In this document: one piece after another, positions 1 through 19,018 of the stretch
Numbering within the stretch: the first letter of the stretch is position 1
Layout: every line of letters starts with the position of its first letter
Translations under genes and position numbers: made by a program
IMG/VR virus record: IMGVR_UViG_3300030109_004865
Coordinates: 32,101 to 55,238 of that record
Reading direction: 5' to 3' (one strand)
DNA from: a virus
Length of the DNA stretch: 23,138 bases
The notes under the pieces: model-generated
The model's input: the letters and a program-made list of their open reading frames with translations, nothing else
The model's database searches: none
Told to the model about the DNA's origin: nothing

Positions 1-2076
1 ATGGGCAAAATGGGCGCTGGCTTACAAAGCTTAGCATTTGTAGGTACAGTAGCTACTAGTAATTTAGTTAAAAATATTCAAACAGCAAAAGAGAAGTATG
101 GGTCTCAAGACTTCAATGCAGTAAAGGGACATTTTAAAGGTCTTATAAAGGAAGGTTTTGATGTTATATTTTCTAAAAAAGAAAATAGAGATGTAGAAAA
201 AGAAGAGTTTAAGTCTAAGTTTCAAAACAGTTTTGGTAGCTTAAAAGGTATGATTAACGGCACGTTTTTTGCTGAAAAACTTGTAGAGGAAGGTGAATAC
301 AATAGGGCTTACCTAGAAGAAAATCCAGCCGAAGCCGCGAAGTTTGATATACTTAGATCGACTAAAGAAAACCCTGTTAAAGCCGAAGGACTTCCATATG
401 ACGGATGTTATTCTGAGTTAGAAATGGTGGACGGTAATTGGAAAAGAATGTACTATGGGCCTAATGGTGAAAAAATAACTAGCTTTGACGAAGACGGTAC
501 TCCAAAATTTAAAGGCACAGAGCAGGTAGGTAGCGATGAAAAAGAAAGAGTTGTAAAGAATCCTAGAAGAAAACTAAAAGGTGAAATGGTGCCAGGTACT
601 GAAACACCACCGGGTGAAGATGAAGGTGCTTTATACGATGGAAGTGGTTTAAAAAGCGAAGAGGAATATATGAAAGTAAACAACCTGCTAGGTAAATACA
701 CAACAAAAACTTATGGTGATATAGAATCTGGCGATAAAGGATCTATTGATAAAGCATTAAAAGTTATGGGTTATGAAGCTAACGCTGAAGGTTTTGCTAA
801 GTTTCAAGAAGACGATATGTTTTCTAGTAGCTTTTATAGACCTAATCTTATAGGTGAAGCGCCTGTAGTTGCAGAAGCAGAGCATTTTGGTTTAGACGAG
901 ACAGGTGTAGGAGGTCTTATAGTTAGAAAAAACCCAGATGTACAAGTTGCGATTCAAGAAGCGCAGTTAGCGGCTATGCAAGACGGTGCTCAAGGTCTTG
1001 AGTTTAAACCTAACGAGTATAAAAACGTACTTAAAGAAGTTATCAACAATAGAGACAAGTTTGTTGATATGACATATACTCCAATAGGTAATCAAGAATA
1101 TAGCTACGCTCAACTTTTAGCTCAACCTAATGAGATGACTAAAGAGATGTTTAATCAAGTTGTTGCTGTAGCAGATGGGTTGTCTGGTATTGATCGAGGA
1201 GCTGACAATGTATTAAACATGCAAGATTTTGACGGACCAGAAGATGCTGCTAATTTAGCAATACTACGTAAAGGTATGCTTAACTACAACAATCCTCAGG
1301 CCCGTGAGATTTTTTATGACTTCTTAACTCAAGAAGGCGCTAGCCAGCACAAGATTCGCTTTGATAAATACACAAAAGACAACATGGTAATAGTACCAGG
1401 CGAGGAAAGTGAGGAAGGTGGTATTATTAGAACGAAAAAATCTGTACAACCTACATCTAGCTTCGTAGATAGCAATAAATACTTTCCAGCTTCATCTATG
1501 AATAATCTTGCGGTAGATATTAATAAACATGCCGACGTAGAGATTTCAGAGGGCATTTTTGCTACTTGGAATGATGCTGGGTATTATGAAGTTGACGGAC
1601 GAGTGATTAAAAACAAAGGTAGTATGTTATCAACATTCTTTGGTGAAGAGCTTACAAACGACTTTAAGTTAACTGATGTGTATAGAAGTATAGAAGATTG
1701 GGATGCCGAAGGAGCTACTAGCACTAGTAAAGGTATAAGCAAGCAGTTTGAAAGTATGATTACAGGTAATTTTGCAGCTGGCTTCAGAGAGTCAGCAACT
1801 GAAAAGAGTTTAATAACTACGCTTAAGGCTATGCAAGACACTTATCCTCAAGTAACAAAGCTTATAACTGATTTGGAAGATTTGACCTTTGGCAGTGACG
1901 CCAATATGCTTACCGGATACCAGCTTGAAATGGACGTAGATAATGACGGTGAAGATGAAACATATAATTTTAAAAACAAGAACCAAAGATCTTCAGCGGC
2001 ACAGCAATTTATAGCTGCGCTTAACAAGAGAATAGCAAAAGGAACTGTAAACAACGAATTTAATACTACAGAGTAA
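1..2076 (+). CDS. Large phage protein of unknown function (691 aa), probably an internal virion protein
   Basis: I do not recognise a named family. The reading frame opens with ATG at the first base of the window, so the true start may lie upstream; if this ATG is right the protein is 691 aa. It is hydrophilic and acidic, with no signal peptide. A mildly hydrophobic N-terminus (about residues 6-25) is followed by a basic helical stretch. The middle (about 290-460) is helix-rich. Near the C-terminus, residues 645-654 read DVDNDGEDET, a DxDxDG calcium-loop-like motif whose twelfth position is Asn rather than Glu or Asp. The stop codon abuts the ATG of the next gene with no gap, so the two are probably translated together. 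Its place ahead of two giant proteins in a late operon suggests a virion or ejection protein. That role is inferred only from context and size. Confidence 0.75.
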   Translation: MGKMGAGLQSLAFVGTVATSNLVKNIQTAKEKYGSQDFNAVKGHFKGLIKEGFDVIFSKKENRDVEKEEFKSKFQNSFGSLKGMINGTFFAEKLVEEGEYNRAYLEENPAEAAKFDILRSTKENPVKAEGLPYDGCYSELEMVDGNWKRMYYGPNGEKITSFDEDGTPKFKGTEQVGSDEKERVVKNPRRKLKGEMVPGTETPPGEDEGALYDGSGLKSEEEYMKVNNLLGKYTTKTYGDIESGDKGSIDKALKVMGYEANAEGFAKFQEDDMFSSSFYRPNLIGEAPVVAEAEHFGLDETGVGGLIVRKNPDVQVAIQEAQLAAMQDGAQGLEFKPNEYKNVLKEVINNRDKFVDMTYTPIGNQEYSYAQLLAQPNEMTKEMFNQVVAVADGLSGIDRGADNVLNMQDFDGPEDAANLAILRKGMLNYNNPQAREIFYDFLTQEGASQHKIRFDKYTKDNMVIVPGEESEEGGIIRTKKSVQPTSSFVDSNKYFPASSMNNLAVDINKHADVEISEGIFATWNDAGYYEVDGRVIKNKGSMLSTFFGEELTNDFKLTDVYRSIEDWDAEGATSTSKGISKQFESMITGNFAAGFRESATEKSLITTLKAMQDTYPQVTKLITDLEDLTFGSDANMLTGYQLEMDVDNDGEDETYNFKNKNQRSSAAQQFIAALNKRIAKGTVNNEFNTTE

Positions 2077-5000
2077 ATGGTAGAGCAATACACTTTTGAA
2101 GGCGTAACATACAACGTTTCATCTGATAGACTGAATGATTTTTTAGCGAAATACCCTGACGCGGTAAAGGTTGAACAGCCGGGAAAGACGTCGGGCACAG
2201 CAATGGGCGATGCAGCTGCTGTGTCAAGCGATATGGAATCAGCATCGGAACCTGGTTCTTCGGAATCTCTAAATATAATTAACGTTGACGCGCCTGATCC
2301 TGAACGCAAGACATCTATACAGCATATAAGTATAGACGATATTAAAGGTACTAGCGGGTCAAATAGGACTGAAGCGCAAAGAGATTACAGTGGTGACCCT
2401 GACTTTGAAGAAAGCAACCTTGTCAGCGTGCTTACTAACCACTACAATAGAGTAGCGCCAGATAAAAATATTAGATTTGCAGAAGCCAAAGCAGGTTTAG
2501 ACGCTATTGAGGTTTTAATAGGTGATCAAAAAGCAGGTGAAGGTCAGGTGTTTGACTTTGACGGAGGTCTTGAGATGGCTGCGCCGTTTACAGGGGAAGC
2601 GGTATGGTGGAAAAGCTTCTTTGGTACTAACGAAAAGTTTACAAACGAAGACTCTTTTGAGTCTATGAGACTTCATATTGAGACTTCAATAAACCCTCAA
2701 GCTAAAGATGACGTGCTTGATGTGGCTTCACAGTTTCTTACTGAAGGTAGCTACGGAGGTGGGTATGACGCTGACGCAAAGGATCGATTTATTAAAAGCA
2801 TTGTAGGTGAAGAGGCTTTTGAGTCTAGAGGAGCTGGTTGGAGCTCTAGAGATGGTGATTGGGCTAATATGGAAGGTTCTCTTGATTTAGGGCCAGAATA
2901 TGGTGGGCTTAAAATACCGTATAAATATTTGTGGGACAATAGAGACGATCTACGTATGGCCACGGCCGCTAGAAACGATGAAAATCTTGTTTTAGAGGTA
3001 ATAGAAAACCAAGGCGAAGGGAAAGTATATTTAGATCCTAACAACCCTTTAACTGGTGTAAGAACCGAAGGGGCTTATAAGTATAGAGAAGATCAAGTTA
3101 GACCTTTGTTAGAAAACGCTTTTGAGGTTGATGAAGAAATCATGAGGCTAACTGATCTAATAAAGACTGGTACCGTTGGCGTGTTAAAAGAAGGTGACGA
3201 AGGGTATGATGATGGGTTGAAAGCACTTCATGCTAGATTGAACGTCGCATTACAGGAGCAAGGTGTTGTGCCATTATGGAAAAACGATGATTCTTCTTCT
3301 GGACTTATAGATATAACAAGAAGTACAGAGCTTTTGCATGACAACATGAGCGAACAAGAAGCTGAGTTCAATGTTGAATCAGATTTATTAGCTAGAAACA
3401 ACAGCGTATATGATCTTCAAGAGATGGCTCTTAACGCTTATGCTAGACTCATAAACTCAGCTCAAGCGGTTATGGATAACGAAGAGTTAGTTTTAGATGA
3501 AGAACCTTTTGCATCACGCGGACCTGACGTTCTAGTAGAACAGTTTAAGAGCGAAGACGATTTAAATCTTCTTGACAGAGCAGCGAAACAACTTGATTCT
3601 CCTAATGCTAGAAGAGATCTAGTGGGTATAAACCGTATTGCTAACAACCGTAGTCTTGATAATTTCTTTCAGTTACCATTATTAAATTCTAAAATTGCTG
3701 AAAATGTACCTGCGGCGCAAGCCTACAACGATGCAGTTAACGATCTATTAGTGCTTTCAAAAGCTGTTGATTTAAACAGAAGAATAGACGCTGAGTCTAG
3801 AGACAGCTATGGCGTTGAAGTTATAAGTGATCTTGCTAACTCTTTTAGAGGTGAAAGAATTTTTCAACCAAAAGCAAGGCCTTCAAAAGAAACTGAGGAA
3901 GTGTTTAAACACGCCATGCATAACGGCGGTTTTGTTGTTCCAGATACATACGATAATAGGCGCATTGGCGAAGGGGCTCTTCAAGTTACAACTGATATGG
4001 CTCCACTCCTTATGGAGATCGCAGCTTTTAATAAGCTAGCTGGTGGATCTAGGTTAGTCAAGTATGTAGGTGGCGCTGTAACAAAGAGTTTAAATTCTAT
4101 GAACGTGCTTTCAAGGATAGGACTTAGATTACCTAGGTTGTACAGCAACTTTAATAAAGCTGTTGGAGCTGGCGTAGGAACAACTCTTGAGTGGTCGGCG
4201 GCTGAAACTATTGGTGAAAAAACTTTAGGCTGGAAAGCTCAAACTATAGACCTTAATACTGGTGAAACTAGATTTACTATGCCTTTTGTTATGGGTATGT
4301 CTGGGACTATGTTTGGCGTTCTTCAAAATAGTCTCAAGTCTCAACTTATGAAAAATCCCTATGTAGGTGCTGTAGTAGAGCGTTTTACTGATACTACTTT
4401 AAAAACTATAGGTGGATCAACAGTTGGTAAGATAGTTAAGCCTTTTACTAACACAATAGGTAAAGCCGCGGGTCAAGGTGCTACAGCTACTGCTTTATTA
4501 ACAGGTGCGGAGCTAGGTCAAATGAATATCGATTCGCTTATGAAAGCTGGTAGGTTTGCTGAGGCAGAGGAAATGGCCGAGCTGTTTGACAGCGAGCACC
4601 TGCTGAACACGTTTTACGCTATGTCTCTTTTAAGTGGTAAAAAAGTTTTACCTGAGTTTAAAGAAGCCGTTAGGCAGAGCGTGCAGCGCATTAAGTTTAG
4701 AACCGCAGAGTCAAACGCTGCTTCAAAAAAACTAGGCGGTATCGATCAAGTAAAAGGTACTAACTACTACCACAGCGAGCAAATTTCCGAGGGTGCTAAT
4801 GCAGAAAAGAAAAAGATTGAAGCTGAAGACAGAAAGCAAAAGCGTCAAATTAAAAAAGACTTAGATGCTGGTAGAATATCAGAAGCTGACGCTAAGTCTA
4901 GAAGAGCTGAGCTAAACAAAAAGAAAAAAGAAAGTAAAAAAGAAGTTGATAATGCAGTAAAAGAGTTAGAACTGCACAACAATATTTTACACGCACAGAG

Positions 5001-6777
5001 AGGAGCTAGAAAGCAAAGAAAGTATAACGAGTACCTAAGAAACCAGCTAAATGATTTTAATATACTAAGAGGCTCTTTAGGTTTACGTGTTGACAATTTA
5101 ACAGACAAGCAGCTTGATAGATTAGCTGAGCTAGATCACGGAGATGTTGAGATGATGCTCTACATGGAGGGTGTTGAACCAGGTTCTCCAGTGTACAGTG
5201 GCGCAGTGTCTACTCACGAAATTTTACGTGACTTAACAAGGTTATCAGATCAACTATTTGTTGGTGAAAAGTCTATGCGTGTTTTTGAAGGTAGCAAAAG
5301 AAGAGAGTTTATTCAAAACCGTATTGAGTTACTTCAAAAAGAAGCTCAAATCGCCGCTTTACAAGAGCAGATAAAGAAAAACCCTAACGATGGAGCGCTA
5401 AGGCTAAACAATGACGGTAAGATTATTGAGGCTAAAAAAGAAGCTAAAGAGCTTAGAGAAAAATCTGCAGAGCTTTTAGGTGAACATAGAGAAGCCGCTG
5501 AAGCTATTATAGAAGCTGAGCTAGCTGCAGCAAAGATTATAGCTGAAAAAGTCGGTGTAGAAAGTGATAGATTTAAAGTTTTAACTGACGCAGAATACAA
5601 AGACTTAGCTAAGAAAGAAGGGTTTGATCCTGATTCAGAAGCTTTTTACGATGCAGAAAAGCAGAGGGTAGTAATAAACAAAGAGCTAGCAGCTCAAATG
5701 GGTTCGTTTGGTGTTGGAGTACACGAAGCGATACACCATATACTAAAAGACTCTTTAAAATCCGTAGATAAGTACGGCCAAAGATTTGTAGATGCAGATG
5801 GCATGAAAATTGTAAATCAGTTTTTAGAGTCATTGCCTAAGAAAACAAGGGGTCTTATAGATAAAAGATTAAACGAAAACTACAGGTTTAAAGAGTTTAC
5901 TACAGAAAAGTATAACGAGCTTTCTGAAGGTGAGAAGTTTATGTTTAAAGATGTTCAAGAGATTGATGGTGGGTATAGAGTAGAGTTTAAAGAGGAGTAC
6001 TACAAAGAAGAAGCTGTTACCGCGTTTAGTGATTTATTAAAAGAAAAAGTAGTAACTTACGAAAAAAGTACTGGTCAAAAAATACAATCTTTATTTTTTC
6101 CTATAATTAATAAAGTATTTAAAAGCGCGTATAAAACAGAAGGAATAAGATCAATAAAAGCTGGTGAAGATTTATATAAGCTTGTTACAGACATGTATGA
6201 AACAAGTGAAATTGCTAAACTAGGCGTTAAAGTAGAAATTTCTAATATTGAGGCTAAAGGCAAGGCTACAAAAAAAGGTGCGGAATTAGGGAAAAAACAT
6301 TTAAAAAGAGACTTTAAATCACTAGAAGGAGCTACTACTCCTAAAAGTAAATTTGAAGCTATTTCAAAGATTTTAAATAGTGTTTCTAAAGGAGCGAAGC
6401 TTAGTAAAGAACAGCAAGCCTTATTAGACAAAACACAACTAGAATTAAAGAACCAAGGATACGAGTTAAAGCACAAGCTTGGGGACAAGGTTAAAGAAGG
6501 AGATATAATCGACATCGAGAATGAGACTATTGAAGTAGAAGGTGGAGAAAAGGTTATTACAAGAGTCATTAGGCCAGCGATATTAAAGAATGGTAAACTA
6601 ATACAGAAAGCCAAGGTTGAAGTTACAGTTGGTGGTCAACCAGGAAGAGTTGCTTATTCAAAAAGAGCAAGACTTAAGAAGGTAACGAAAGTAGAGCAAC
6701 CATCGGATATAGTTAACAAATTTGCAGAAGGTGTAGAAACAAAATCAGAGTGGCTTGAAAGCAGTCGATGCTCTTAA
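2077..6777 (+). CDS. Giant phage polyvalent/internal virion protein with HExxH metalloprotease domain (1566 aa)
   Basis: The N-terminus (residues 5-30) is a compact YTFEGVTYNVSSDRLNDFLA-type module followed by a low-complexity Ser/Ala/Gly linker. Residues about 641-815 are Gly/Ala-rich with hydrophobic helices that could contact membrane. Charged coiled coils lie at about 900-990 and 1075-1160. Residues 1216-1220 read HEAIH, the zinc-binding HExxH motif of a gluzincin-like peptidase. E1312 in KEEAVTAFSDLL is the likely third ligand. The preceding AFYDAEKQRVVINKEL strand is typical of metallopeptidases embedded in phage polyvalent proteins. The last about 120 residues form a basic beta-rich module. 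Such proteins are known to be very large and are thought to be carried in virions and delivered with DNA; here that is inference. Possible roles are self-processing or cleavage of host proteins. The last 8 residues may be an out-of-frame tail, because the next reading frame continues this sequence smoothly. Confidence 0.85.
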   Translation: MVEQYTFEGVTYNVSSDRLNDFLAKYPDAVKVEQPGKTSGTAMGDAAAVSSDMESASEPGSSESLNIINVDAPDPERKTSIQHISIDDIKGTSGSNRTEAQRDYSGDPDFEESNLVSVLTNHYNRVAPDKNIRFAEAKAGLDAIEVLIGDQKAGEGQVFDFDGGLEMAAPFTGEAVWWKSFFGTNEKFTNEDSFESMRLHIETSINPQAKDDVLDVASQFLTEGSYGGGYDADAKDRFIKSIVGEEAFESRGAGWSSRDGDWANMEGSLDLGPEYGGLKIPYKYLWDNRDDLRMATAARNDENLVLEVIENQGEGKVYLDPNNPLTGVRTEGAYKYREDQVRPLLENAFEVDEEIMRLTDLIKTGTVGVLKEGDEGYDDGLKALHARLNVALQEQGVVPLWKNDDSSSGLIDITRSTELLHDNMSEQEAEFNVESDLLARNNSVYDLQEMALNAYARLINSAQAVMDNEELVLDEEPFASRGPDVLVEQFKSEDDLNLLDRAAKQLDSPNARRDLVGINRIANNRSLDNFFQLPLLNSKIAENVPAAQAYNDAVNDLLVLSKAVDLNRRIDAESRDSYGVEVISDLANSFRGERIFQPKARPSKETEEVFKHAMHNGGFVVPDTYDNRRIGEGALQVTTDMAPLLMEIAAFNKLAGGSRLVKYVGGAVTKSLNSMNVLSRIGLRLPRLYSNFNKAVGAGVGTTLEWSAAETIGEKTLGWKAQTIDLNTGETRFTMPFVMGMSGTMFGVLQNSLKSQLMKNPYVGAVVERFTDTTLKTIGGSTVGKIVKPFTNTIGKAAGQGATATALLTGAELGQMNIDSLMKAGRFAEAEEMAELFDSEHLLNTFYAMSLLSGKKVLPEFKEAVRQSVQRIKFRTAESNAASKKLGGIDQVKGTNYYHSEQISEGANAEKKKIEAEDRKQKRQIKKDLDAGRISEADAKSRRAELNKKKKESKKEVDNAVKELELHNNILHAQRGARKQRKYNEYLRNQLNDFNILRGSLGLRVDNLTDKQLDRLAELDHGDVEMMLYMEGVEPGSPVYSGAVSTHEILRDLTRLSDQLFVGEKSMRVFEGSKRREFIQNRIELLQKEAQIAALQEQIKKNPNDGALRLNNDGKIIEAKKEAKELREKSAELLGEHREAAEAIIEAELAAAKIIAEKVGVESDRFKVLTDAEYKDLAKKEGFDPDSEAFYDAEKQRVVINKELAAQMGSFGVGVHEAIHHILKDSLKSVDKYGQRFVDADGMKIVNQFLESLPKKTRGLIDKRLNENYRFKEFTTEKYNELSEGEKFMFKDVQEIDGGYRVEFKEEYYKEEAVTAFSDLLKEKVVTYEKSTGQKIQSLFFPIINKVFKSAYKTEGIRSIKAGEDLYKLVTDMYETSEIAKLGVKVEISNIEAKGKATKKGAELGKKHLKRDFKSLEGATTPKSKFEAISKILNSVSKGAKLSKEQQALLDKTQLELKNQGYELKHKLGDKVKEGDIIDIENETIEVEGGEKVITRVIRPAILKNGKLIQKAKVEVTVGGQPGRVAYSKRARLKKVTKVEQPSDIVNKFAEGVETKSEWLESSRCS
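6737..6777 (+). other. Possible +1 frameshift junction joining the two giant reading frames
   Basis: The upstream frame (TGG CTT GAA AGC...) stops at 6775-6777. The downstream frame is open from just after a TAG at 6734-6736, and its only nearby start is a TTG at 6755 with no convincing ribosome-binding site. Skipping the single C at 6754 after TGG gives a seamless protein, ...KSEWLKAVDALKPGG..., that continues an amphipathic stretch of the upstream frame. This fits a recent 1-nt indel, an assembly error, or programmed +1 slippage at CTTG. The alternative is two genes with a 23-nt overlap. I cannot choose among these from the sequence alone. Confidence 0.45.
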
Positions 6778-9700
6778 GCCTGGTGGTGTAATATATAATC
6801 GTATTGCAGACAAGAGCAAAGGGCTAAGTAAAGAAAAGATCTCTGAGACTGTAAAAGAACTTAGAAGCAGGTTAGTTAACTTTGATCCGCAAGCTAAAAG
6901 AAGAACAGGGTCTGAGCAACCCATTACCTTTGATGAGTTTATTAACGCAAACATCGGTTTTGGTAAACTAGTTGCTGCTAAAGAGTTATTTAAGCAGTCT
7001 GAACAAGCGTCTAGAACTAAGAGAATAGACGAAACAACATCTGAGGGCAGGCAAATGTTTGAGCTTGAAGCAGATAGAGATACTAGATTAGAAGCTTTTG
7101 AAAATATGGACTTAAGTGCCGGCGCACAGGCTAGAAGAGCTAAGCTAAAAGAAGCTGGTAAATCAGAAACAGAAGGTCCAAGATCTAAAGTTAAAAAGCT
7201 ATTATTGAAAAACAACAAGCTAGCAAATCCTGAGGCTTCAGTTAAAGAGTTTGAAAACAAGTTTAAAGCTTCGGTACAAAAAGCAGTAAGAACTGGAGGA
7301 TATATAGGTGCTACAGCTAAAAATAAACCATTTGTTTTTAGAGACAACTTAGAAAAAACATTTGAAAACGATATGTTTAAGGATGTTAAAAACGCTCTTG
7401 GCACACGTAAAGTTTACGAAGACTTCGTTAAAAGTAAAGACTTTTTTGACGTAGTAAACGGCGTAGACATGAGACAGCTTATTAAAGCTAAAATGACGTT
7501 TGCTTATGAGCCTGTTATAGACCCTGCTACTGGAAAGCAGCAAAGAATGTCGACAGAAGAGATGCGAGAAGCTGGTTATCCTGAAAGATATGACTTTGGC
7601 GCAGCTCCTGGTAAGTTTAGAAAAAAGAACTTTACGCAACAAGATCTTATTGACTGGGCTGAAGGTAAAGGTATGGCTGGCTCTACAAAAGGAACGCGTA
7701 AAGACGCAATAGCTAGGGTGCTTTCTATTGAGGGAGCTAAAGACGCTATGCCAACAGCTTTGCGCAATCCGTTTGTTGAAGCGCTTGATAGAAATGGTAG
7801 ACCTATACTTGAAGCTGACGGTACGCCTAGAAAAATAAACTTACTAGAAGACTTAAACTCTAAACAAGTAGAAACGTTAATGTTAACGGATCTAAAAGCT
7901 CAAGTACTAGACGTTGTAAATAGAAATCCTAACCTACAGTTTTCTAAAAAGACTGTTAGTGATTTTAACTTTAAAACAAAAGACTTAAGTATTAGTGAAG
8001 TAATAAACGAGCTAAAGAAAGCAGAAAACTCAAACATAAAAGATATTTATGATACTGTTACTTTAGCTAGACATAATATGGAGTTTATACCATACATAAA
8101 GTCTATTAGAGATAACTATTACGATAATAAAGATTTACACGAGTTAAAGCTAAAAGAATCTGATTTAAAAGGTGAGATGGAAGATGTTCGTGTTTTAAAA
8201 GAAATGGCTGTTACTGAGTCTGCTTTTAAAGACGTGTCAATTAAGTTTAACTTAGAGAATAAATCTAACCAAATATCTTTGCCGGGTAAAATAAGTGGTT
8301 TTGATGCTTGGACTATGGACCCAAAACAGTTAGAAGTATTTCAAAAAGAATATGGCGAAATTTTAGATTTGCTACCTTCATGGATGCTAAGCAATAAGCA
8401 GATCATGAACACCTTAATTACTACAGGTGGTCAAGGTAAGATTTATACCAGGATTGGTAAAAACAGCAAAGGCAACGATTCTCCGCGTGTTCAAAGAAAA
8501 GATAGCGGTAATTTAAATTATCAAATAGAAAATTACGGTAAAGAACTTAAAGGCATAGAGTCTAAAGCGCCTATGATTAAAAACAACAAAGGTAAAGAAG
8601 TTCCTTTGACAGACGCGTTTAAAGTAACTGATACAGGTAAATTCAAGAAAGAATACCGTAAATTCCAATTAGAAAACCAAAAGCTACTTGAGCAGGGAAG
8701 AGAGGCTGAATATTTATCAAAGTTAAAAAAGTTTGCTAATGATAAAATTGCTAAAAAAGGTTTTACTTTTGAACAAACGTATGAAGCTAATCAGCTTGTT
8801 AGAAACTCTGTAACAGAAGCTATGGTTAAAAGAGCCTTTGAGCAAGGCATAACAAACGCTGAGCGCACAGCTAGATTTGACGCAATACACAAGTTATTAC
8901 AGATACAAACAAACATTGGTAACGGCGCGTTTAAAGGTTTAAATACTATAAGATACATTGATACTTCAAAAGCTCCTTCGCTAGAAGGTATTGAATATAA
9001 CAGCTCTAAGGCTAGCGGATACCACGCAGAGCACGCGTTTTTTAATCTTGCACATACAGCTACGGTTTCTAAACTACTTTCCAAGTATAACAATACTAAG
9101 GGTAGTCAAGCTAGCAAAACAGAAAAGTTCATGGAGGAATATAAAAAGATTTCTCTTGATCAATATATTATACCTGAGACTTTAAGACAAATGAACGAAG
9201 GAGCTCAAGTAGACCCTAAGACAGGCGAGATAAAAGAGGTTAAAGGTAATACTGAGTTTGAATACCTTGGTAATGTTTATCCCGAGCTTAATGTTTTAGC
9301 TAATGCTCCTAAAAAAGCGTTTGAAATATTTGACATAAAAGAAGGTAAGTTTATGTCGGACCGCTTGCTGGATAATCTTAATGCCGGAGGAGAAGCTGCT
9401 AGAAAACTAAGTATATTAGCTGAAAGCCTAGACGTTATAAAGCAAGACAGAAATACTGTTGAAGCCGTTGACGCAGCCAACGAAGCTAAACTAGTTAAGT
9501 CTGGTTTTCACAGTAAAAAATCTGCTAAAGACCTAACGTTTAATGAGAAGAAAAAAGCTTTACAAAATATAAAGAAAGCTTTTGATAACGCGCGTAAAAC
9601 AGACGGCAAGAAAAAAGGTATGTCAACATTTGACTTTGACGAAACAGTAGGTGTAAGCGAGAACTTTGTTATAGCTACAAAAAACGGTGAGACAAAAAGA

Positions 9701-12181
9701 ATAGCTTCTCATGAATGGCCATTTGTAGGTGAGAGCTTAGTGAAAGACGGTTGGAAAATGGATTTTTCTGACTTTAATAAAGTTACAAAAGGAAAGCCTG
9801 GTCCTCTCATGACTAAGCTTAAAAACCAAATATCTAAGTTTGGACCTGACAATGTGTTCATACTCACAGCTAGAGCTCAAGAAAGCGCATCAGCAATACA
9901 TGAGTGGCTTAAGACTCAAGGTGTAAACATACCTTTAAAGAACGTAACTGGACTAGGCAATAGCGCGGGTGAAGCTAAAGCTGCTTGGATGGTTGAAAAA
10001 TACGCTGAAGGATACAATGATATGTACTTTGTTGACGACGCGATGCCTAATGTTGAAGCTGTTAAAAAAGCTTTGGATCAGCTTGACATTAAATCAAAAG
10101 TTAGGCAAGTTCAATATTCTAAAAAACAATCTCTTGATGCTGATTTAAACAAATTACTAGAGCACTCGTTTGGTATTGATGCCGCAAAAAAATTCAGCAA
10201 AGCAGAAGGACGTATGAGAGGTCAATCGGCTAAGCGTAGAAAAATATTCTTACCAGATTCTGCCGCTGATTTAGGTCTGTTACTAGAGCCTCTATATGGT
10301 AAAGGTAAAAAAGGTATTGAAAACAAAGAGTGGTTTGAAAAGAATTTTTACAGAAAATTTGAAAGAGGCATTAACAGCTATAATACGGCAAAGCAAAGAA
10401 TATCTAACGAATATATAGCGCTTAGAAAATCTAGCAAGGATGTAGTTAAGGGTCTTAGTAAAGATATACCAGGCACAAACTTTAGCCACGACATGGGCGT
10501 AAGAATATACATATGGAATAAAGCTGGTTTTAAAATACCTGATCTTGCTGAAACAACTAAAAACACTATATTAGAATATATTGAACAATCACCTAAGTTT
10601 AAGGCTTACGCGGAGTCTGTATCTAAAATTAGTGGTATTGAAACTGGATTAAGAGAGCCTACAGCTGAGTGGTGGGCAGAAACTATAGCTACAGAGCTAA
10701 GCGACGCTAACAGAAGTGTTGGAAGAAAAGAATACTTAGCTGATTTTATAGAAGCTAGAAAGCAAATATTTTCTGAAGCCAACTTAAATAAAATGGAGTC
10801 TAAGCTTGGTAAAGACTGGCGTGAAAACATTGAAGACATGTTCGATCGTATGGAAAGCGGTAGAAGTAGATCTGAAAAATTAACTGGTATTACTGGTGAT
10901 CTCGTAAACTATCTTAATGGATCTGTTGGTGCAATAATGAACTTTAACACAAGATCTGCAACGCTGCAGTTGTTATCGACAGTTAATTTCATTAATGCAA
11001 CATTTAACAACCCTGCAAGAGCAGCTCAAGCGTTTGCTAATCAAAAGCAGTACTGGAAAGACTTTATGACTATTATGAACTCTGACATGCTAAAGCTTAG
11101 GAGAGATGGTCTTCAAATAAACGTCACAGAGGCTGAGCTCGCTAGCGCTGCTAAGGGCACTAAAAACCCTGTTAAAGCAGTCATGGCTAAGCTTATAAAA
11201 GCTGGTTATTTACCCACTAAGTTTGCTGACAGTTTTGCTATAGCAGCTGGTGGAGCAACATACTATAGAAACTCTATACGTAAATACATGAAAGAAGGCA
11301 TGAGTAAGGCTGAGGCTGAAAAACAAGCGTTTTTAGATTTCCAAGCTATCGCAGAAAAAACTCAGCAATCTAACAGACCTGATCTTATATCTCGAGAGCA
11401 AACAACGCTAGGTGGTAGACTTATACTTCCGTTTGCAAACACACCTCTTCAGATGAATAGATTAGCTGCAAAAGAAATGTTAGACATTGCAAAAGGTAGA
11501 TACAAAAACAAAGCAGAGTTAACAGAAAAACTAGGTAAAATAGGTTATTACGGTTTTGTTCAAACGGCTATATTTGCAGGTCTTTCATCAAGCGCTTTTG
11601 CGTTAATGATGAATAGTGAAGATGAAGACGCTATAAAAGAAAAGCAAACAAGAGCTCGTGATAGCTGGATGGATTCAACGCTTAGAGGTATGGGTATAAA
11701 AGGAGCTGTACTAAACGGAGTTGTTAATGCTGTTAAAGAGTTTGGCACACAAAGCGAAAAAGGTTTTGGGGCTGATTACAGTGAGGTTGCAGAAGATCTA
11801 TTGAACATATCTCCACCTATAGGTTCTAAGTTCAGAAAACTTGATCAAGCAGGTAATATATATAAGTATAATAGAAAAGAAATAGACGATCAAGGTATTG
11901 AGTTTGATCTTGATAGCCCTGGCTTAGAAGCATCATTGTTAACTACTGAAGCTATTACAAACATACCTGTACATAGATTCCATAGAAAAGCAACTAATCT
12001 TAGAAACTTAACAGATTCTGATTTTGAAATTTGGCAAAAGGTGTTGATGGCATTAGGTTGGAGCTCTTGGGATGTAGCCCCTGATGTTGCTAAAGAAAAA
12101 GCAAAAGAAAAGAAAGGTGGAACCAAAGAAAATAAAAAACAAGAAAAAAAGCCTTTTAAAATAATTAATATAGATAGATAA
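6755..12181 (+). CDS. Giant phage polyvalent/internal virion protein with HAD-like phosphatase domain (1808 aa)
   Basis: The first half is charged and helix-rich with no family I can name. Residues about 956-1110 form a complete HAD-superfamily hydrolase: motif I FDFDET (D960 nucleophile, D962), motif II T1038 in LTAR, K1075, and the acidic pair D1094-D1095 in YFVDDAMPN. The TAR and helix pattern resembles 3'-phosphatase domains of polynucleotide kinase-phosphatases, so nucleic-acid end processing is possible. The C-terminal third (about 1130-1700) holds blocks I associate with large marine phage virion proteins, such as TQQSNRPDLISREQ and GRLILPFANTPLQMNR. A hydrophobic segment at about 1597-1615 may cross or insert into membrane. 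The start shown is TTG; an in-frame ATG comes only near 7053, about 100 codons later. It may really be the C-terminal part of a fusion of about 3370 aa with the upstream frame. The stop overlaps the next ATG by 1 nt. Confidence 0.85.
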   Translation: MKAVDALKPGGVIYNRIADKSKGLSKEKISETVKELRSRLVNFDPQAKRRTGSEQPITFDEFINANIGFGKLVAAKELFKQSEQASRTKRIDETTSEGRQMFELEADRDTRLEAFENMDLSAGAQARRAKLKEAGKSETEGPRSKVKKLLLKNNKLANPEASVKEFENKFKASVQKAVRTGGYIGATAKNKPFVFRDNLEKTFENDMFKDVKNALGTRKVYEDFVKSKDFFDVVNGVDMRQLIKAKMTFAYEPVIDPATGKQQRMSTEEMREAGYPERYDFGAAPGKFRKKNFTQQDLIDWAEGKGMAGSTKGTRKDAIARVLSIEGAKDAMPTALRNPFVEALDRNGRPILEADGTPRKINLLEDLNSKQVETLMLTDLKAQVLDVVNRNPNLQFSKKTVSDFNFKTKDLSISEVINELKKAENSNIKDIYDTVTLARHNMEFIPYIKSIRDNYYDNKDLHELKLKESDLKGEMEDVRVLKEMAVTESAFKDVSIKFNLENKSNQISLPGKISGFDAWTMDPKQLEVFQKEYGEILDLLPSWMLSNKQIMNTLITTGGQGKIYTRIGKNSKGNDSPRVQRKDSGNLNYQIENYGKELKGIESKAPMIKNNKGKEVPLTDAFKVTDTGKFKKEYRKFQLENQKLLEQGREAEYLSKLKKFANDKIAKKGFTFEQTYEANQLVRNSVTEAMVKRAFEQGITNAERTARFDAIHKLLQIQTNIGNGAFKGLNTIRYIDTSKAPSLEGIEYNSSKASGYHAEHAFFNLAHTATVSKLLSKYNNTKGSQASKTEKFMEEYKKISLDQYIIPETLRQMNEGAQVDPKTGEIKEVKGNTEFEYLGNVYPELNVLANAPKKAFEIFDIKEGKFMSDRLLDNLNAGGEAARKLSILAESLDVIKQDRNTVEAVDAANEAKLVKSGFHSKKSAKDLTFNEKKKALQNIKKAFDNARKTDGKKKGMSTFDFDETVGVSENFVIATKNGETKRIASHEWPFVGESLVKDGWKMDFSDFNKVTKGKPGPLMTKLKNQISKFGPDNVFILTARAQESASAIHEWLKTQGVNIPLKNVTGLGNSAGEAKAAWMVEKYAEGYNDMYFVDDAMPNVEAVKKALDQLDIKSKVRQVQYSKKQSLDADLNKLLEHSFGIDAAKKFSKAEGRMRGQSAKRRKIFLPDSAADLGLLLEPLYGKGKKGIENKEWFEKNFYRKFERGINSYNTAKQRISNEYIALRKSSKDVVKGLSKDIPGTNFSHDMGVRIYIWNKAGFKIPDLAETTKNTILEYIEQSPKFKAYAESVSKISGIETGLREPTAEWWAETIATELSDANRSVGRKEYLADFIEARKQIFSEANLNKMESKLGKDWRENIEDMFDRMESGRSRSEKLTGITGDLVNYLNGSVGAIMNFNTRSATLQLLSTVNFINATFNNPARAAQAFANQKQYWKDFMTIMNSDMLKLRRDGLQINVTEAELASAAKGTKNPVKAVMAKLIKAGYLPTKFADSFAIAAGGATYYRNSIRKYMKEGMSKAEAEKQAFLDFQAIAEKTQQSNRPDLISREQTTLGGRLILPFANTPLQMNRLAAKEMLDIAKGRYKNKAELTEKLGKIGYYGFVQTAIFAGLSSSAFALMMNSEDEDAIKEKQTRARDSWMDSTLRGMGIKGAVLNGVVNAVKEFGTQSEKGFGADYSEVAEDLLNISPPIGSKFRKLDQAGNIYKYNRKEIDDQGIEFDLDSPGLEASLLTTEAITNIPVHRFHRKATNLRNLTDSDFEIWQKVLMALGWSSWDVAPDVAKEKAKEKKGGTKENKKQEKKPFKIINIDR

Positions 12182-13218
12182 TGAAAAGAATACTATTATT
12201 AACTTTACTGCTTTTTGCTGTAAACCAGCTACAAGCTCAAGAGGTAAAAAAAGCTTTTAAGTTTTCTACGTTCTATGCAGCTGTTAATGGAGGTAACTCT
12301 GTATCAGATCAAACTATATACTCTGTTACTAATGGATTAACTCAAGAAACCGTAGCTACTCCGTTTGACTATAGCTTATCTATGGGTGTGCGTAAGATCG
12401 CTAGATTCGGGTATGAAAATAGAGCTCAAGCTTTTTATGACGGATCAGAAACATCTTGGTCTGCTGACGCTAACATAGGTAAGCGCAATGGCATAGAGTT
12501 TCTTGGAGAAGTTACATACGAAAGACAGCAGGGTAAAGAGTTCTTTAACCAGCATCACTTTTTTCGCTACATCGGAGACAAAGTTATGGCAAAGGTTGAG
12601 TACCTTGAAGACGGGTTTGCAGACATTGAGTACTTTGAAGGATCACAGCGATTTCGACTTAAGCTCGGCAACAAGTTTTCTTTGCACGCGGGTGTCGCGC
12701 AACGTATCTCAGAACCTTACGGGTATGATCCACTTGAAGAGTGGAAGCTGGAAACAGGAGACATACACTATACTTACCTCGCAATTGAAGAAGGATATTC
12801 ACACAACCTTACTACGGGCGAGTACCTCGCTCCTGATGGAACAGTCGTTGCGACAAACACTGAAGTTTGGGAGGCAGTCACTATCCCTAGCATCTTATCT
12901 GAATACACTGCTAGAAAAAGAAATGAACTCTCTCGTCAATGGAATTACTCAGTGGTTGCCGGCTTCGACTTCTATCACTTTACAGACGACTTCTGGTTCC
13001 ACTCATGGGGAAACGTTTTACCCTACCATTACGACACTGGAGGTGAGTATATGTATCACAATACAGTAAACGGACAATGGCTTGATTACTCAGGCGGTTT
13101 GATATTTGGACACAGATTCAACAAACACTTAGGTGTATTCTTAGAAGGTAGATATTATAAGTACTGGAATAGAGAGTGGTACAACTTTAAGTGTGGAGCA
13201 AACTATGTAATCTTCTAA
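12181..13218 (+). CDS. Exported outer-membrane beta-barrel-like protein (345 aa)
   Basis: Residues 1-19 are a classic Sec signal peptide (MKRILLLTLLLFAVNQLQA followed by Gln). The mature part is rich in alternating, aromatic-containing strands and ends in ...CGANYVIF; a terminal Phe is the usual sorting signal of outer-membrane barrels. These features support an outer-membrane barrel of about 12-16 strands, though strand number is a guess. A phage gene with this design could mask a receptor and block superinfection, or alter permeability; neither role can be proved here. The start is fixed by a TAATG overlap with the preceding giant gene. Codon use changes inside the gene: about 12480-13020 is richer in TAC, TTC, ATC, GTC and CTC than both flanks, which suggests recombination or recent acquisition of that segment. 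It is followed after 3 nt by the basic-protein cluster. Confidence 0.8.
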   Translation: MKRILLLTLLLFAVNQLQAQEVKKAFKFSTFYAAVNGGNSVSDQTIYSVTNGLTQETVATPFDYSLSMGVRKIARFGYENRAQAFYDGSETSWSADANIGKRNGIEFLGEVTYERQQGKEFFNQHHFFRYIGDKVMAKVEYLEDGFADIEYFEGSQRFRLKLGNKFSLHAGVAQRISEPYGYDPLEEWKLETGDIHYTYLAIEEGYSHNLTTGEYLAPDGTVVATNTEVWEAVTIPSILSEYTARKRNELSRQWNYSVVAGFDFYHFTDDFWFHSWGNVLPYHYDTGGEYMYHNTVNGQWLDYSGGLIFGHRFNKHLGVFLEGRYYKYWNREWYNFKCGANYVIF

Positions 13219-13221
13219 GAT

Positions 13222-13611
13222 ATGGCGTACACTCAAAAAAATAATCCAATACCAGTAACATCTTGCGGTAGGCGTAGAGCAGGCGGCATAGGACAAGGAT
13301 TTAATTCGCCTATTAAAATGGTTGACGAATCACCGCTTGAAAAAAGAAAGCGTAAACGTAAACCTGATGTTAGAAAAACAACTAAAGGTAAAAGCCGTAA
13401 CTTTCGTACAGTAAAAGAAGGTGCAGGTATGACAAAAGCTGGGGTACGTAAGTACAAGGCTAAAAACCCTGGAAGTAAATTAAAAACAGCTGTAACTGGT
13501 AAAGTAAAACCAGGTAGTAAAGCTGCTAAACGTAGAAAATCGTTCTGCGCTAGATCAAAAGGTTGGACCGGTGAAAGAGGTAAAGCAGCTAGACGTAGAT
13601 GGAAATGTTAG
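13222..13611 (+). CDS. Small highly basic phage protein with a KRRKSFCARSKGW-type domain (129 aa)
   Basis: About a third of the residues are Lys or Arg. The N-terminal half holds SPIK and SPLE motifs and a KRKRKRK run. The C-terminal half (about residues 70-129) runs GMTKAGVRKYKAKNPGSKLK, then VKPGSKAAKRRKSFCARSKG, and ends GKAARRRWKC. That block resembles a small domain of unknown function that I recall from many marine phages and large DNA viruses (DUF6321-like; from memory, not searched). There is no signal peptide or membrane segment. The composition suggests nucleic-acid binding, perhaps as a DNA-packaged or DNA-condensing protein. Four such proteins in a row support a shared job. The start follows the upstream stop by 3 nt. 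Confidence 0.8.
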   Translation: MAYTQKNNPIPVTSCGRRRAGGIGQGFNSPIKMVDESPLEKRKRKRKPDVRKTTKGKSRNFRTVKEGAGMTKAGVRKYKAKNPGSKLKTAVTGKVKPGSKAAKRRKSFCARSKGWTGERGKAARRRWKC

Positions 13612-13615
13612 AATC

Positions 13616-13738
13616 ATGGCATTTAAAATGAAATCACCGCTAAAAGCGTGTTGGAAACGTTACGTGCAAAAAGGCATGAAGAAAAAAGGTAATCGCATGG
13701 TGCCAAATTGCGTGCCAAGAAAAAAGAAAAAGAAATAA
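13616..13738 (+). CDS. Very small basic protein (40 aa)
   Basis: This short frame fills the gap between two basic-protein genes. The translation is MAFKMKSPLKACWKRYVQKG, then MKKKGNRMVPNCVPRKKKKK, then TAA. It begins 4 nt after the preceding stop, and its TAA overlaps the next ATG by 1 nt (TAATG), the same coupling used elsewhere in this operon. The MAFKMK start is repeated exactly in the next gene, the SPLK motif occurs in the genes on both sides, and the two cysteines and poly-Lys tail fit the family style. These points make it a real gene rather than a chance frame. Function is unknown; nucleic-acid binding is inferred from charge. Confidence 0.7.
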   Translation: MAFKMKSPLKACWKRYVQKGMKKKGNRMVPNCVPRKKKKK

Positions 13739-14025
13739 TGGCTTTTAAAATGAAATATAAAGACTTGCAAGAAGTTGTAGATCAACTTAAAGGCGCGGTT
13801 AAAGCACACGGCAAGCAGGCTAAAGTAGTAGAAAACCACATTAAAGAAATGCAGTCTCCTGCTAAAATGATGTCTCCTTTAAAAGGTAAAATTAGCGGTC
13901 CGTGTAAAACAGCCGCTAAACGTAAGTTTAAGGTGTGGCCTAGTGCTTACGCTTCTGGTTGGGGTGTAAGGTGTACTAAAGCTGGTGGACCTAGTAAAAT
14001 GGGTAAAAGTAAAAAGAAAAAGTAA
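13738..14025 (+). CDS. Small basic phage protein with a KVWPSAYASGWGVRCTKAGG-type domain (95 aa)
   Basis: The chosen start is the ATG at 13738, not the in-frame ATG at 13708, because 13738 gives a TAATG overlap with the 40-aa gene and an N-terminus MAFKMK identical to that gene's. Residues about 4-37 form an amphipathic helix, followed by SPAK and SPLK motifs. A Cys-containing module (about 53-85: CKTAAKRKFKVWPSAYASGW, then VRCTKAGG) resembles a short domain I remember from many phages and giant viruses, often annotated only as a DUF (DUF5872-like; from memory). It ends in KKKK. A nucleic-acid-binding or virion-internal role is likely but unproven. The stop overlaps the next start by 1 nt. 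Confidence 0.78.
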   Translation: MAFKMKYKDLQEVVDQLKGAVKAHGKQAKVVENHIKEMQSPAKMMSPLKGKISGPCKTAAKRKFKVWPSAYASGWGVRCTKAGGPSKMGKSKKKK

Positions 14026-14303
14026 TGGCTTTTAAGCAGTTAAATAATCCTTTTAAAAAACAAAAGGGTGGAGGTACTAAAAAGACGTGCTTACCTGCTG
14101 CTAAGATTAGAAGCATGAGTAAGTCTGAGCGCGATAAGCTTGTAAGAGCTAAGCGTAAAGCTGCTAAAGGTGGTAAGTATAAAAGATCTAGTAAAACAAA
14201 TGTTAAAGGCGCTCGTAAAAAAGGTGCTACATTAAGAGATTGGTTTCAAAAAGAAGACTGGAGACAAGTTAATGATCCGAGTAAAAAGTGTGGAGAAAAA
14301 TAA
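14025..14303 (+). CDS. Small basic phage protein, GATLRDWFQKEDWRQV type (92 aa)
   Basis: It opens MAFKQLNNPFKKQK, echoing the MAFK starts of the two preceding genes. The body has a charged helix with SMSKSERDKLVRAKRKAAKG, a KGARKKG loop, then a conserved-looking aromatic patch (LRDWFQKEDWRQVNDPS) and a terminal KKCGEK. A single Cys near each end (C30 and C89) could pair or bind metal. The aromatic DWF...DW module recurs in small marine phage proteins to my memory, but I cannot name a characterised function. It is coupled to the upstream gene by TAATG and followed after 6 nt by the holin-like gene. DNA binding is inferred from charge. Confidence 0.75.
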   Translation: MAFKQLNNPFKKQKGGGTKKTCLPAAKIRSMSKSERDKLVRAKRKAAKGGKYKRSSKTNVKGARKKGATLRDWFQKEDWRQVNDPSKKCGEK

Positions 14304-14309
14304 AGTAAA

Positions 14310-14594
14310 ATGGCAAAACAAATAGGTGAGGATACTAAAGTAACATTAGACCTTAAAACAATTGGCATGGCAGGTGCTGGACTAGCAGCCTTGATCGGTT
14401 TATATTTTACGCTACAAGCTGATATAGCTTTAGCTAAAGAACTACCTGAACCGTTGCCTCCAGATGTAACTCGCATGGAGTTTGATATGAAAGATAAACT
14501 GGTGCGTCAGACTATTATGACTACACAAGAAGACGTGTCTGAGCTTAAAGAAGATCTTGATCGTATCGAAGAAAAAATTGATAAACTAAAGTAA
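14310..14594 (+). CDS. Holin-like single-pass membrane protein (94 aa)
   Basis: A short polar N-terminus (about 16 residues) is followed by one hydrophobic helix at about 17-36 (IGMAGAGLAALIGLYFTL). A Pro-rich hinge (ELPEPLPPD) and a C-terminal coiled coil (about 58-94, ending VSELKEDLDRIEEKIDKLK) follow. Size, topology and position upstream of an endolysin with no signal peptide fit a holin or other small lysis protein. A membrane anchor for an exported complex is the main alternative, because the next two genes encode exported proteins. The ATG sits in a TAAAATG-like context (AAAGTAAAATGG) common in Bacteroidota. It is followed by a 2-nt gap. Confidence 0.65.
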   Translation: MAKQIGEDTKVTLDLKTIGMAGAGLAALIGLYFTLQADIALAKELPEPLPPDVTRMEFDMKDKLVRQTIMTTQEDVSELKEDLDRIEEKIDKLK

Positions 14595-14596
14595 TC

Positions 14597-14971
14597 ATGG
14601 AAACAGATACAATGAACTGGAAAACTACACTAGTATACGCGCTGTTGTTAGTCATAATGCTTATCGGTGGAATGTCTGTTAGTGCTCAGAACCTATGTGG
14701 TAGTGATATTTGTGTAGTTCAATTTAATGCTAGCTGGAACGCTAGCAATAACGTTGACTACTTAGAAAAACTTACAGACTGTGAAATTATGAATGTCAAT
14801 ATTGACGAGGGTAGCTATCAAAGTGATTATAAGATAGTTGTAGTACCTACTATCATAGTCTTTAATGGCAAAGAGGTAGAGAGGTTTCAAGCAAATATAA
14901 TGATGGAGATGGAAGCTACTAAGAAAGATGTGCAAGGGGCGATTGACGAAATAATATATAGTGATTTTTAA
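14597..14971 (+). CDS. Exported thioredoxin-fold protein lacking the CxxC active site (124 aa)
   Basis: A signal peptide or anchor covers residues about 9-30, with a good cleavage site after SVSA (A30, then QN). The rest follows the thioredoxin pattern: strand VVQFNASW, a helix, strand CEIMNVNID, then VVVPTIIVFNGKEV carrying the cis-Pro (P84), and a final helix. The usual W-C-G-P-C is replaced by W47-N-A-S-N, so both catalytic cysteines are Asn. Three cysteines remain (C34, C39, C62) and could form a structural disulfide. Known CxxC-less thioredoxin folds act as chaperones or binding modules, so a binding role in the periplasm or envelope is more likely than redox catalysis. Its stop abuts the ATG of the T9SS-tailed secreted protein, so it may assist folding of that Cys-rich cargo; this is inference. 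Confidence 0.75.
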   Translation: METDTMNWKTTLVYALLLVIMLIGGMSVSAQNLCGSDICVVQFNASWNASNNVDYLEKLTDCEIMNVNIDEGSYQSDYKIVVVPTIIVFNGKEVERFQANIMMEMEATKKDVQGAIDEIIYSDF

Positions 14972-17735: not shown

Positions 17736-18140
17736 ATGGCAACTACAACAGCTACAATTACGCTATCAAGTACTGACTTGTTGTCAGACGAGTTAGCTTT
17801 AACAACCACAGCGACGCTTCACGCCGCGGACTCAGCGACTGGTTTAACTCAGGCTTCTGGTTTAAGTAGAAAAAAACTAGCATCAGGTCACGCAGAATAC
17901 ACTCTGTACGACGGAAGCGCATATACAGCAGATAAAGCTCATAAGGTTTATCTTAAAAACACTTCATCAACAGCAGCGGAGTTTTTTTTACTAACAGTTA
18001 ACGCTGAGGTAGTAGGAAGACTTTACGCAGGTGATTGGGCTTTATTTCCTTGGTCAGCTCACGACAATGATTGTGATATTAAAATAGACCCTAGTGCAGC
18101 TGACATGGTACTAGAGCACATGCTATTCGTCGACGAATAA
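17736..18140 (+). CDS. Phage structural-type protein, first of three tandem paralogues (134 aa)
   Basis: It is a beta-rich, Thr/Ser/Ala-rich protein with no signal peptide. It opens MATTTATITLSS and carries the family hallmark VGRLYAGDWALFPWS (residues 93-107) before a short acidic C-terminus. The two following genes share the MATT-A-T start, a TATL..A..TTGL-like segment, a (V/A)Y(L/I).N strand pair and the G(R/K)LY(A/G)GDW...PW block. I recall similar small proteins beside tail fibres of marine phages, but know of no measured function. Position between endolysin and tail fibre suggests a virion decoration or tail appendage protein. It ends in tandem TAA TAA stops. Confidence 0.82.
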   Translation: MATTTATITLSSTDLLSDELALTTTATLHAADSATGLTQASGLSRKKLASGHAEYTLYDGSAYTADKAHKVYLKNTSSTAAEFFLLTVNAEVVGRLYAGDWALFPWSAHDNDCDIKIDPSAADMVLEHMLFVDE

Positions 18141-18163
18141 TAACAACTAAATAAATAATTAAA

Positions 18164-18598
18164 ATGGCAACTACAGCAACGATTACGTTAACTAGTGCAG
18201 ACATTGCTGGAGACCCAGTTAATGTTTCTAAAACAGCGACCTGTACAAAAGCAGGCGCAACAACAGATTTAGATCAAACAACTGGATTAAATAGAGTCCA
18301 TTTAAGATCTACAACAAACAAAGTATTACTTGCAGCTAATGCAGAAGGTAATGATTTATCAGCTAAAGTTTATATTATAAACAAAGCTACAGATCCAACT
18401 CTTTACGTTACTATTACTATTAACGCGCAGACTATTGGTAAACTTTACGCAGGTGACTGGATGTTTATTCCATGGAGCCAGACAGATTCGTCGGCTGATA
18501 TCGAAGTAGCAGCAACAAACTGGACAGCATCTACAGGTGACATACCTGTTGAGTACGCTTTATTTCACGAAGATACAGACTTTTTAACTAACGCATAA
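18164..18598 (+). CDS. Phage structural-type protein, second of three tandem paralogues (144 aa)
   Basis: It shares its layout with both neighbours: MATTATITLTSADI at the N-terminus, TATCTKAGATTDLDQTTGLN, strands KVYIINK and LYVTITINA, then IGKLYAGDWMFIPWS (residues 91-105). It carries an extra WTASTGD loop and a longer acidic tail. The 23-nt spacer ahead of it is the widest gap in the plus-strand block and holds only an A/T run ending TTAAAATGG, a start context typical of Bacteroidota. It ends with TAA TAA. The role is inferred to match its paralogues: a virion surface or tail protein. Confidence 0.82.
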   Translation: MATTATITLTSADIAGDPVNVSKTATCTKAGATTDLDQTTGLNRVHLRSTTNKVLLAANAEGNDLSAKVYIINKATDPTLYVTITINAQTIGKLYAGDWMFIPWSQTDSSADIEVAATNWTASTGDIPVEYALFHEDTDFLTNA

Positions 18599-18610
18599 TA
18601 ACTAGAAAAT

Positions 18611-19018
18611 ATGGCAACAACAACAGCAACAGTAAGCATAAGCAGCGATATTACAGACAGCACGATAAATGTGTCTAACACTGCGGCGCTAAACACAGCT
18701 GGAACTACAACTGGCCTCAACACTATGACGTCAGTTACAAAAGTACTAGCTAGTACAAATCAGGTAGATTTAATTACTACTGGCAGCGTGTCAACAACTC
18801 ACGCTTACGTGTATATAAACAACCCGTCAACAGATCACACTGAATACTTCAATATCACTATCGGCAATGCAGGTGGTGGTTCAGCTACAGATACTGAGGA
18901 AATTGGTAGACTGTACGGTGGAGACTGGATGTGGTTTCCTTGGGATGTTGATGATGATATTTGCATCACGCCAAGCGTAGCAACTGATATGACTGTAGAG
19001 TATCAAGTATTCTCATAA
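18611..19018 (+). CDS. Phage structural-type protein, third of three tandem paralogues (135 aa)
   Basis: It opens MATTTATVSISSDI, continues NVSNTAALNTAGTTTGLN, and has AYVYINNPS and EYFNITIGN strands and the hallmark IGRLYGGDWMWFPW (residues 98-111). A Gly-rich insertion (AGGGSATDTEE) before the hallmark sets it apart from the other two copies. It ends with a YQVFS strand. The gene lies 12 nt after copy two and 11 nt before the next small gene. Divergence among the three copies is high (shared mainly at motif positions), which suggests an old duplication kept by selection, perhaps to form a hetero-oligomer. Confidence 0.82.
   Translation: MATTTATVSISSDITDSTINVSNTAALNTAGTTTGLNTMTSVTKVLASTNQVDLITTGSVSTTHAYVYINNPSTDHTEYFNITIGNAGGGSATDTEEIGRLYGGDWMWFPWDVDDDICITPSVATDMTVEYQVFS

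Follow-up and report, generated by a model that had tools for sequence, protein, structure and literature searches.

What are four consecutive genes for small, lysine-rich proteins doing in a late gene run of a phage? The genes lie in a 23,138-nt stretch of DNA (the window) from the IMG/VR record IMGVR_UViG_3300030109_004865. A sequence-only reading had proposed that they encode DNA-condensing or ejected nucleoid proteins whose S-P-x-K motifs bind AT-rich minor grooves, as in histone H1-type proteins. The four open reading frames (ORFs), which we denote A–D, are found exactly at the positions and with the lengths claimed there (Table 1), on a single strand, and are near-contiguous or overlap by one base. 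The shared starts (MAFKMK in B and C, MAFK in B, C and D) and the S-P-x-K motifs of the first three proteins (SPIK in A, SPLK in B, SPAK and SPLK in C) are likewise present, as are Cys residues in all four (3, 2, 2 and 2 in A–D). Lys-only tails are seen, and all four proteins are strongly basic, with K+R contents of 32, 40, 25 and 33% and net charges of +35, +16, +19 and +23 in A, B, C and D. Each protein carries one small module flanked by an invariant Cys pair (66/66 aligned sequences for A; 17/17 and, among non-gap rows, 12/12 for B; 76/76 and 75/76 for C; 81/81 for D).

Table 1 Positions of the four-gene cassette and of neighbouring features in the window
Feature	Position	Strand	Description
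691-aa protein	1..2076	+	Same late gene run; open frame; Pfam match below cut-off only
1566-aa protein	2077..6777	+	Open frame; no PHROG match of note
1808-aa protein	6755..12181	+	Upstream of the cassette; start codon uncertain
345-aa protein	12181..13218	+	Directly before the cassette
Protein A, 129 aa	13222..13611	+	N-terminal tag MAYTQKNNPI + TSCGRRR, SPIK linker, C-terminal module A (DUF6321)
DUF6321 match inside protein A	13423..13575	+	PF19846, residues 68-118
Protein B, 40 aa	13616..13738	+	Tag MAFKMKSPLK, then module B (CWKxxVQKGMKKKGNRMVPNCV)
Protein C, 95 aa	13738..14025	+	Tag MAFKMK, helix-like segment (VVDQLKGAVKAHGKQA), SPAK + SPLK, module C (KFKVWPSAYASGWGVRC)
Protein D, 92 aa	14025..14303	+	Tag MAFKQLNNPFKK, half-module D1 (~14079-14210), half-module D2 (~14226-14297)
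94-aa protein	14310..14594	+	Directly after the cassette; one hydrophobic segment (by eye)
124-aa thioredoxin-like protein	14597..14971	+	PF00085, E 0.013, 16 bits against a cut-off of 23.5

The cassette ORFs are real genes under strong purifying selection. Across seven comparisons with the close relatives L002, L009 and L003, dN is 0.01–0.13 against a dS of 0.5–1.3, giving dN/dS of roughly 0.02–0.19. The start of B at 13616 is supported because a MAFKMK or MAYKMK start is common to the relatives of this protein. Low-complexity, fast-drifting Lys-rich filler without function might be expected to have poly-Lys tails such as those seen here, and neither Pfam nor PHROGs annotates a function for any of A–D. 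This explanation is nevertheless already refuted by conservation, given the low dN/dS and the invariant columns, and hundreds of phage records hold homologues; its probability is close to nil.

To place the cassette among related phages, we searched IMG/VR with D, which returned 184 relatives, and kept the best 80; together with the window these form a set of 81 loci. D is present in all 81, C in 76, A in 65 and B in 17, with the A–D modules on a single strand and within 6 kb. In the 57 loci from the best 80 of 184 that extend at least 3 kb before and at least 1.5 kb after D, C is found in 57 and A in 50. Further modules accompany them in the 81 loci (E in 39, F in 32, G in 35, H in 8 and M in 27), and the gene order varies: A-C-D occurs 29 times, C-D-A 19 times and A-B-C-D three times, including the window. 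Modules are also fused to one another in this set (B-D 3, B-E 2, P-D 4, P-E 3, P-E-D 1 and F-G-D 2). A PAP2 phosphatase, encoded in 51 of the 81 loci (best 80 of 184 plus the window), adjoins the basic modules and is sometimes fused to D or E; one such gene is at L011:2772-3317. One of these proteins matched Pfam PAP2 with E 5e-7, and 44 of the 51 keep in full the pattern that we take to be the PAP2 signature. Two loci (L034:9336-9620 and L047:9244-9528) encode a small basic Cys protein (VSFACRFAGMKASMT) with a MAY..NP tag, which looks like a distant DUF6321 variant. A basic gene pair of cassette type also lies about 41 kb from the cassette in the same virus record, upstream of head genes (L183:3508-4054); one member has SPMK and the other matches phrog_6437, as module H does.

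The same set of loci (best 80 of 184 plus the window) allowed the SPxK motif to be examined across homologues. SP.K occurs 108 times in the 344 cassette proteins, against 28.7 expected and a maximum of 38 in 20 shuffles, and 37 times in 1,064 other proteins of these loci, against 44 expected; SP.[KR] was absent from all 14 other main window genes checked. The enrichment and the high Lys content recall histone H1 and the SPKK sperm histones, and the enrichment would favour an H1-like set that binds the AT-rich minor groove through SPKK-type motifs. In the available text of PMC9903204, however, the sperm histone motif is SPK(K/R), whereas the third residue here is hydrophobic rather than basic: 83 of 99 unique contexts have L, M, A, V, I or F there, and Lys fills the position in just 8 of the 99 and in none of the four SPxK of the window. 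The motifs therefore do not follow the histone-type pattern S-P-K/R-K/R, and no homology to these histones was seen. Nor is SPxK conserved, a finding that the sequence-only reading had itself named as counting against its proposal: the motif is present in stand-alone B (12/12) and in F-G (17/22) and is absent from most C (present in 23/76), A (13/66) and D (8/71) proteins of the 81 loci. We rejected the SPKK reading on the hydrophobic third residue and the patchy conservation, and regard an H1-like set as very improbable. By alignment, the conserved feature is the Cys-bracketed modules rather than SPxK.

A different pattern may account for the motif. A start of the form M(A)[FY] closely followed by [SN]P and a hydrophobic residue is shared by 120 module proteins from five or more unrelated kinds (D 45, A 38, C 16, B 6 and E 6, plus fusions and others); 27 additional ORFs match it as well, some of which are clearly other proteins. 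Because the third residue is mostly hydrophobic and the tag is common to unrelated modules, SPxK most plausibly represents one form of a common, apparently swappable N-terminal or linker tag, MA[FY]..[SN]P-hydrophobic.

Profile searches indicate that the modules belong to families found well beyond these loci. Protein A is by score a member of DUF6321 (PF19846), exceeding the curated cut-off with E 3.9e-10 and 40.7 bits against 28.5; the family covers A alone and says nothing about B, C and D, for which the Pfam search gave no DUF6321 match. The papers that we searched make no mention of DUF6321. Protein C scored 15.7 bits against DUF5872 (PF19197), under the cut-off of 27.5 for membership; this family appears in a gene list in the available text of PMC12085832. 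In PHROGs, A matches phrog_10346 (E 1e-20) and B matches phrog_9737 (E 4e-9), and a single family, phrog_727, is matched at different places by A (E 9e-5), B (E 3e-6) and C (E 1e-4). Module A is present in 52 phage records, and module B matches 199 by tblastn. A tblastn search of 50,697 phage records with C and D found nothing at E 0.001, so that within this analysis the stand-alone form of D comes solely from uncultivated viral contigs and from three metagenome-assembled genome (MAG) contigs. The invariant columns of D include C22 and C89 in a 71-row alignment. Its structural model, of moderate confidence (pLDDT 67), had no relative by fold in the PDB (best E 7.9), and the PDB held no credible relative by sequence, with one match at E 0.01 for D and none for the fused chains described below. 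In BFVD, two relatives of the D model had E-values under 0.001; one of them comes from an uncultured virus, is named DUF6321 and also aligns with D, which suggests, at the level of models, a D-A fusion.

The common match to phrog_727 is explained by T4-like cyanophages, in which all four modules reside in one chain. This family takes in the T4-GC119 protein of cyanophages (Syn33_105, SSM1_115, S-SCSM1 gp029 and S-B43 QDH50481), and the chain is found in 488 phage records. From the N-terminus, it reads D-like region, C, B, A in Syn33, S-B43, S-CAM9 and S-SCSM1. A search with the S-B43 chain gave at least 598 loci, of which we took the best 80. In these and in six annotated phage records, 85 long proteins carry A, B or C or a combination of them. 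A D-like region, recognised by a sequence pattern of our own, accompanies C, B and A in 45 of the 85, and the order is D-C-B-A in 42 of those 45. The A, B and C profiles match single cyanophage chains with E down to 9e-29, 7e-14 and 1e-9, respectively. The chain, of about 430–700 aa, differs from the window in several respects: the window has four genes in the reverse order, A-B-C-D; the halves of D are swapped; and, by eye, the cyanophage chains have no MAFK/SPxK tag. In the model of one fused chain (L093), confidence is mostly confined to a domain at about residues 263-312, which has no counterpart in the window. Some cyanophage chains also show, by eye, a zinc-ribbon-like Cys cluster (YC..C......C; L174:13537-15024 and L175:3368-4921).

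The swap within D is visible in the order of its conserved elements. In the window, 'C..SMSKSER..' precedes 'LRDWF..W..V..C', whereas the cyanophage D has the second half first. With separate D1 and D2 half profiles, hmmsearch failed to hit the D region of cyanophages apart from a single match by D2, so a profile–profile comparison was required. We used hhalign to compare an alignment of 71 D sequences with one of 55 sequences of the cyanophage region; its E-values refer to single comparisons. Unswapped D aligned over 30 columns of one half (67%, E 5e-5), whereas D with its halves swapped aligned over 54 columns across both halves (96.7%, E 3e-10); six other module profiles all remained below 1%. 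On these alignments, D is circularly permuted between window-type phages and T4-like cyanophages. Swapping also brings the two invariant Cys residues near to each other in sequence, as in cyanophages, suggesting that they are likely to be close in space. As judged by such comparisons, the modules of the cassette are homologous to those of the fused chains and have been freely recombined and fused.

The surroundings of the cassette are stable: among the best 80 of 184 loci, 53 contain relatives of the 1808-aa neighbour, 51 of the 345-aa, 54 of the 94-aa and 49 of the thioredoxin-like one. Upstream in the 55-kb record of the window, and on the same strand, lie TerL, portal and head proteins, and the size and position of the 1566-aa protein make it a candidate virion or ejected protein. 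Downstream, a 765-aa protein (14972-17269) with Cys-rich 'GC.D..A.NYN..AN' repeats and relatives in 34 of the best 80 of 184 loci carries, inside a phage, a Bacteroidota type IX secretion C-terminal domain (PF18962, E 4e-12), and three tandem proteins of 134-144 aa with MATT.AT starts (17736-19018) look like paralogues. Outside the window, the same virus record encodes a GroEL (PHROG match) followed by what by eye looks like a GroES ORF (L183:4623-6435). Two of three matches in genome collections are Bacteroidota MAGs (Saprospiraceae and Cryomorphaceae); the third is labelled Aliivibrio and is a 5-kb contig. These matches and the type IX secretion domain fit the earlier guess of a Bacteroidota phage, and the host is probably a member of this phylum.

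Where the modules act is best approached through their carriers in cultured cyanophages. In S-CREM2, virion mass spectrometry detected ORF137 (108049-109521) with four unique peptides and 4.1% coverage (Table 3 in the available text of PMC10665884). The chain ends in module A and, by eye, lacks B, C and D, and the few peptides may derive from the part outside module A. The S-SCSM1 record gives the name 'virion protein' to gp029, a chain with D, C, B and A, and calls a gene next to it 'hypothetical protein'; the available text of PMC9602691 reports 45 virion proteins by mass spectrometry, and the label suggests that gp029 is among them. The S-B43 homologue is annotated as 'structural protein'. 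The virion association of module carriers is thus partly established, in two cyanophages, and because published mass spectrometry finds the carrier of one module in virus particles, A–D are probably packaged, DNA-associated parts of the virus.

Gene positions among head and packaging genes favour the same reading. Module A is encoded between the genes for scaffold and capsid in HTVC031P, between those for capsid and tail tube in P-SCSP1u, and beside the terminase in S-TIP28, Venkman, S-B43, S-SCSM1 and S-CREM2, and TerL, portal and head proteins precede the cassette in the record of the window. In HTVC010P, HTVC028P and S-CRES3, module A instead lies near lysis or unknown genes, which counts against it. 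Gene positions also bear on two alternatives. One holds that A–D act only in the infected cell, as late non-virion DNA- or RNA-binding factors that, for instance, aid packaging at the terminase or take over the host nucleoid or ribosomes. The fused cyanophage chains are encoded next to TerL or in the gap that separates the small and large terminase genes, as an intracellular role would predict; the strong positive charge of A–D suits such a role too. So does S-SM1, in which SSM1_115 is named 'hypothetical' although others in the record are 'virion structural protein' and 41 proteins were found by mass spectrometry; the available text of PMC3037559 likewise terms T4-GC119 hypothetical, and SSM1_115 was probably not detected in these virions. 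The S-CREM2 peptides and the S-SCSM1 label argue against confinement to the cell, as do the scaffold, capsid and tail genes that surround module A in the T7-like phages HTVC031P and P-SCSP1u. We regard a purely intracellular role as possible, if doubtful. In P-SCSP1u and HTVC031P, a small basic protein with GLYANIHAKRKRI.AGSGEKMRK adjoins the module A gene among capsid genes (L173:6201-6377 and L176:3319-3468).

The same head-gene positions would also suit a second alternative, in which A–D serve the head or neck as minor structural or cement proteins and direct their charge at the capsid or at other proteins, not at the genome; the Cys-bracketed mini-domains resemble binding units, and one tag is common to several unrelated modules. 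The extreme Lys/Arg content and Lys-only tails, however, suit nucleic acid better, and no known cement protein was matched in Pfam or PHROGs, which makes a cement role quite unlikely.

We therefore favour, at about even probability, the explanation that A–D are stand-alone versions of basic modules that are fused elsewhere, and are packaged, DNA-associated, perhaps injected virion proteins loaded by their tag. The DNA-condensing or ejected nucleoid set of the sequence-only reading survives in part: carriers of the modules have been reported in virions, and a positive charge as strong as that calculated from the sequence fits DNA contact, whereas the argument from H1-type SPKK motifs does not hold. 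In such a scheme, A–D would be synthesised late, the shared tag would load them into the head, their charge would hold them against the packaged DNA, and they would exit with the genome on infection in the manner of T4 internal proteins; the Cys pairs would probably staple each mini-domain through a disulfide or a shared metal.

The T4 head protease removes the N-terminal targeting sequence of such internal proteins at [LI]xE. Among 91 tagged N-termini, this site occurs in the first 30 residues of four, against a shuffled mean of 2.4 (range 0-9), that is, without enrichment, and T4-type capsid targeting with [LI]xE cleavage was rejected on this basis. The available text of PMC7697877 describes how a short N-terminal targeting sequence brings T4 internal proteins into the prohead, with a capsid targeting sequence (CTS) of about 10 residues common to IPI, IPII and IPIII. 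As in the cassette, several small proteins thus have a common short N-terminal element, and carriers of the cassette modules are virion-associated; in contrast, no sequence relation to the T4 proteins was seen and the cleavage site is not enriched, so we speak of a likeness to T4 internal proteins and not of membership.

Hundreds of records of marine phages contain these modules; the hosts are SAR11 and cyanobacteria and, in the present case, probably Bacteroidota. Tentatively, and with a rather low probability, marine phages may share a combinatorial kit of Cys-bracketed basic mini-domains that undergo swapping, permutation, splitting and fusion between genes. In it, a swappable tag, MA[FY]..[SN]P-hydrophobic-x-K, of which SPxK would be one form, would load modules and fused enzymes such as the PAP2 phosphatase, so that the virion delivers them to the host. 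By tying four 'hypothetical' genes to one chain, for which there is partial evidence from virions, and to a candidate loading tag, the analysis makes them a group of putative virion proteins that can be put to the test.
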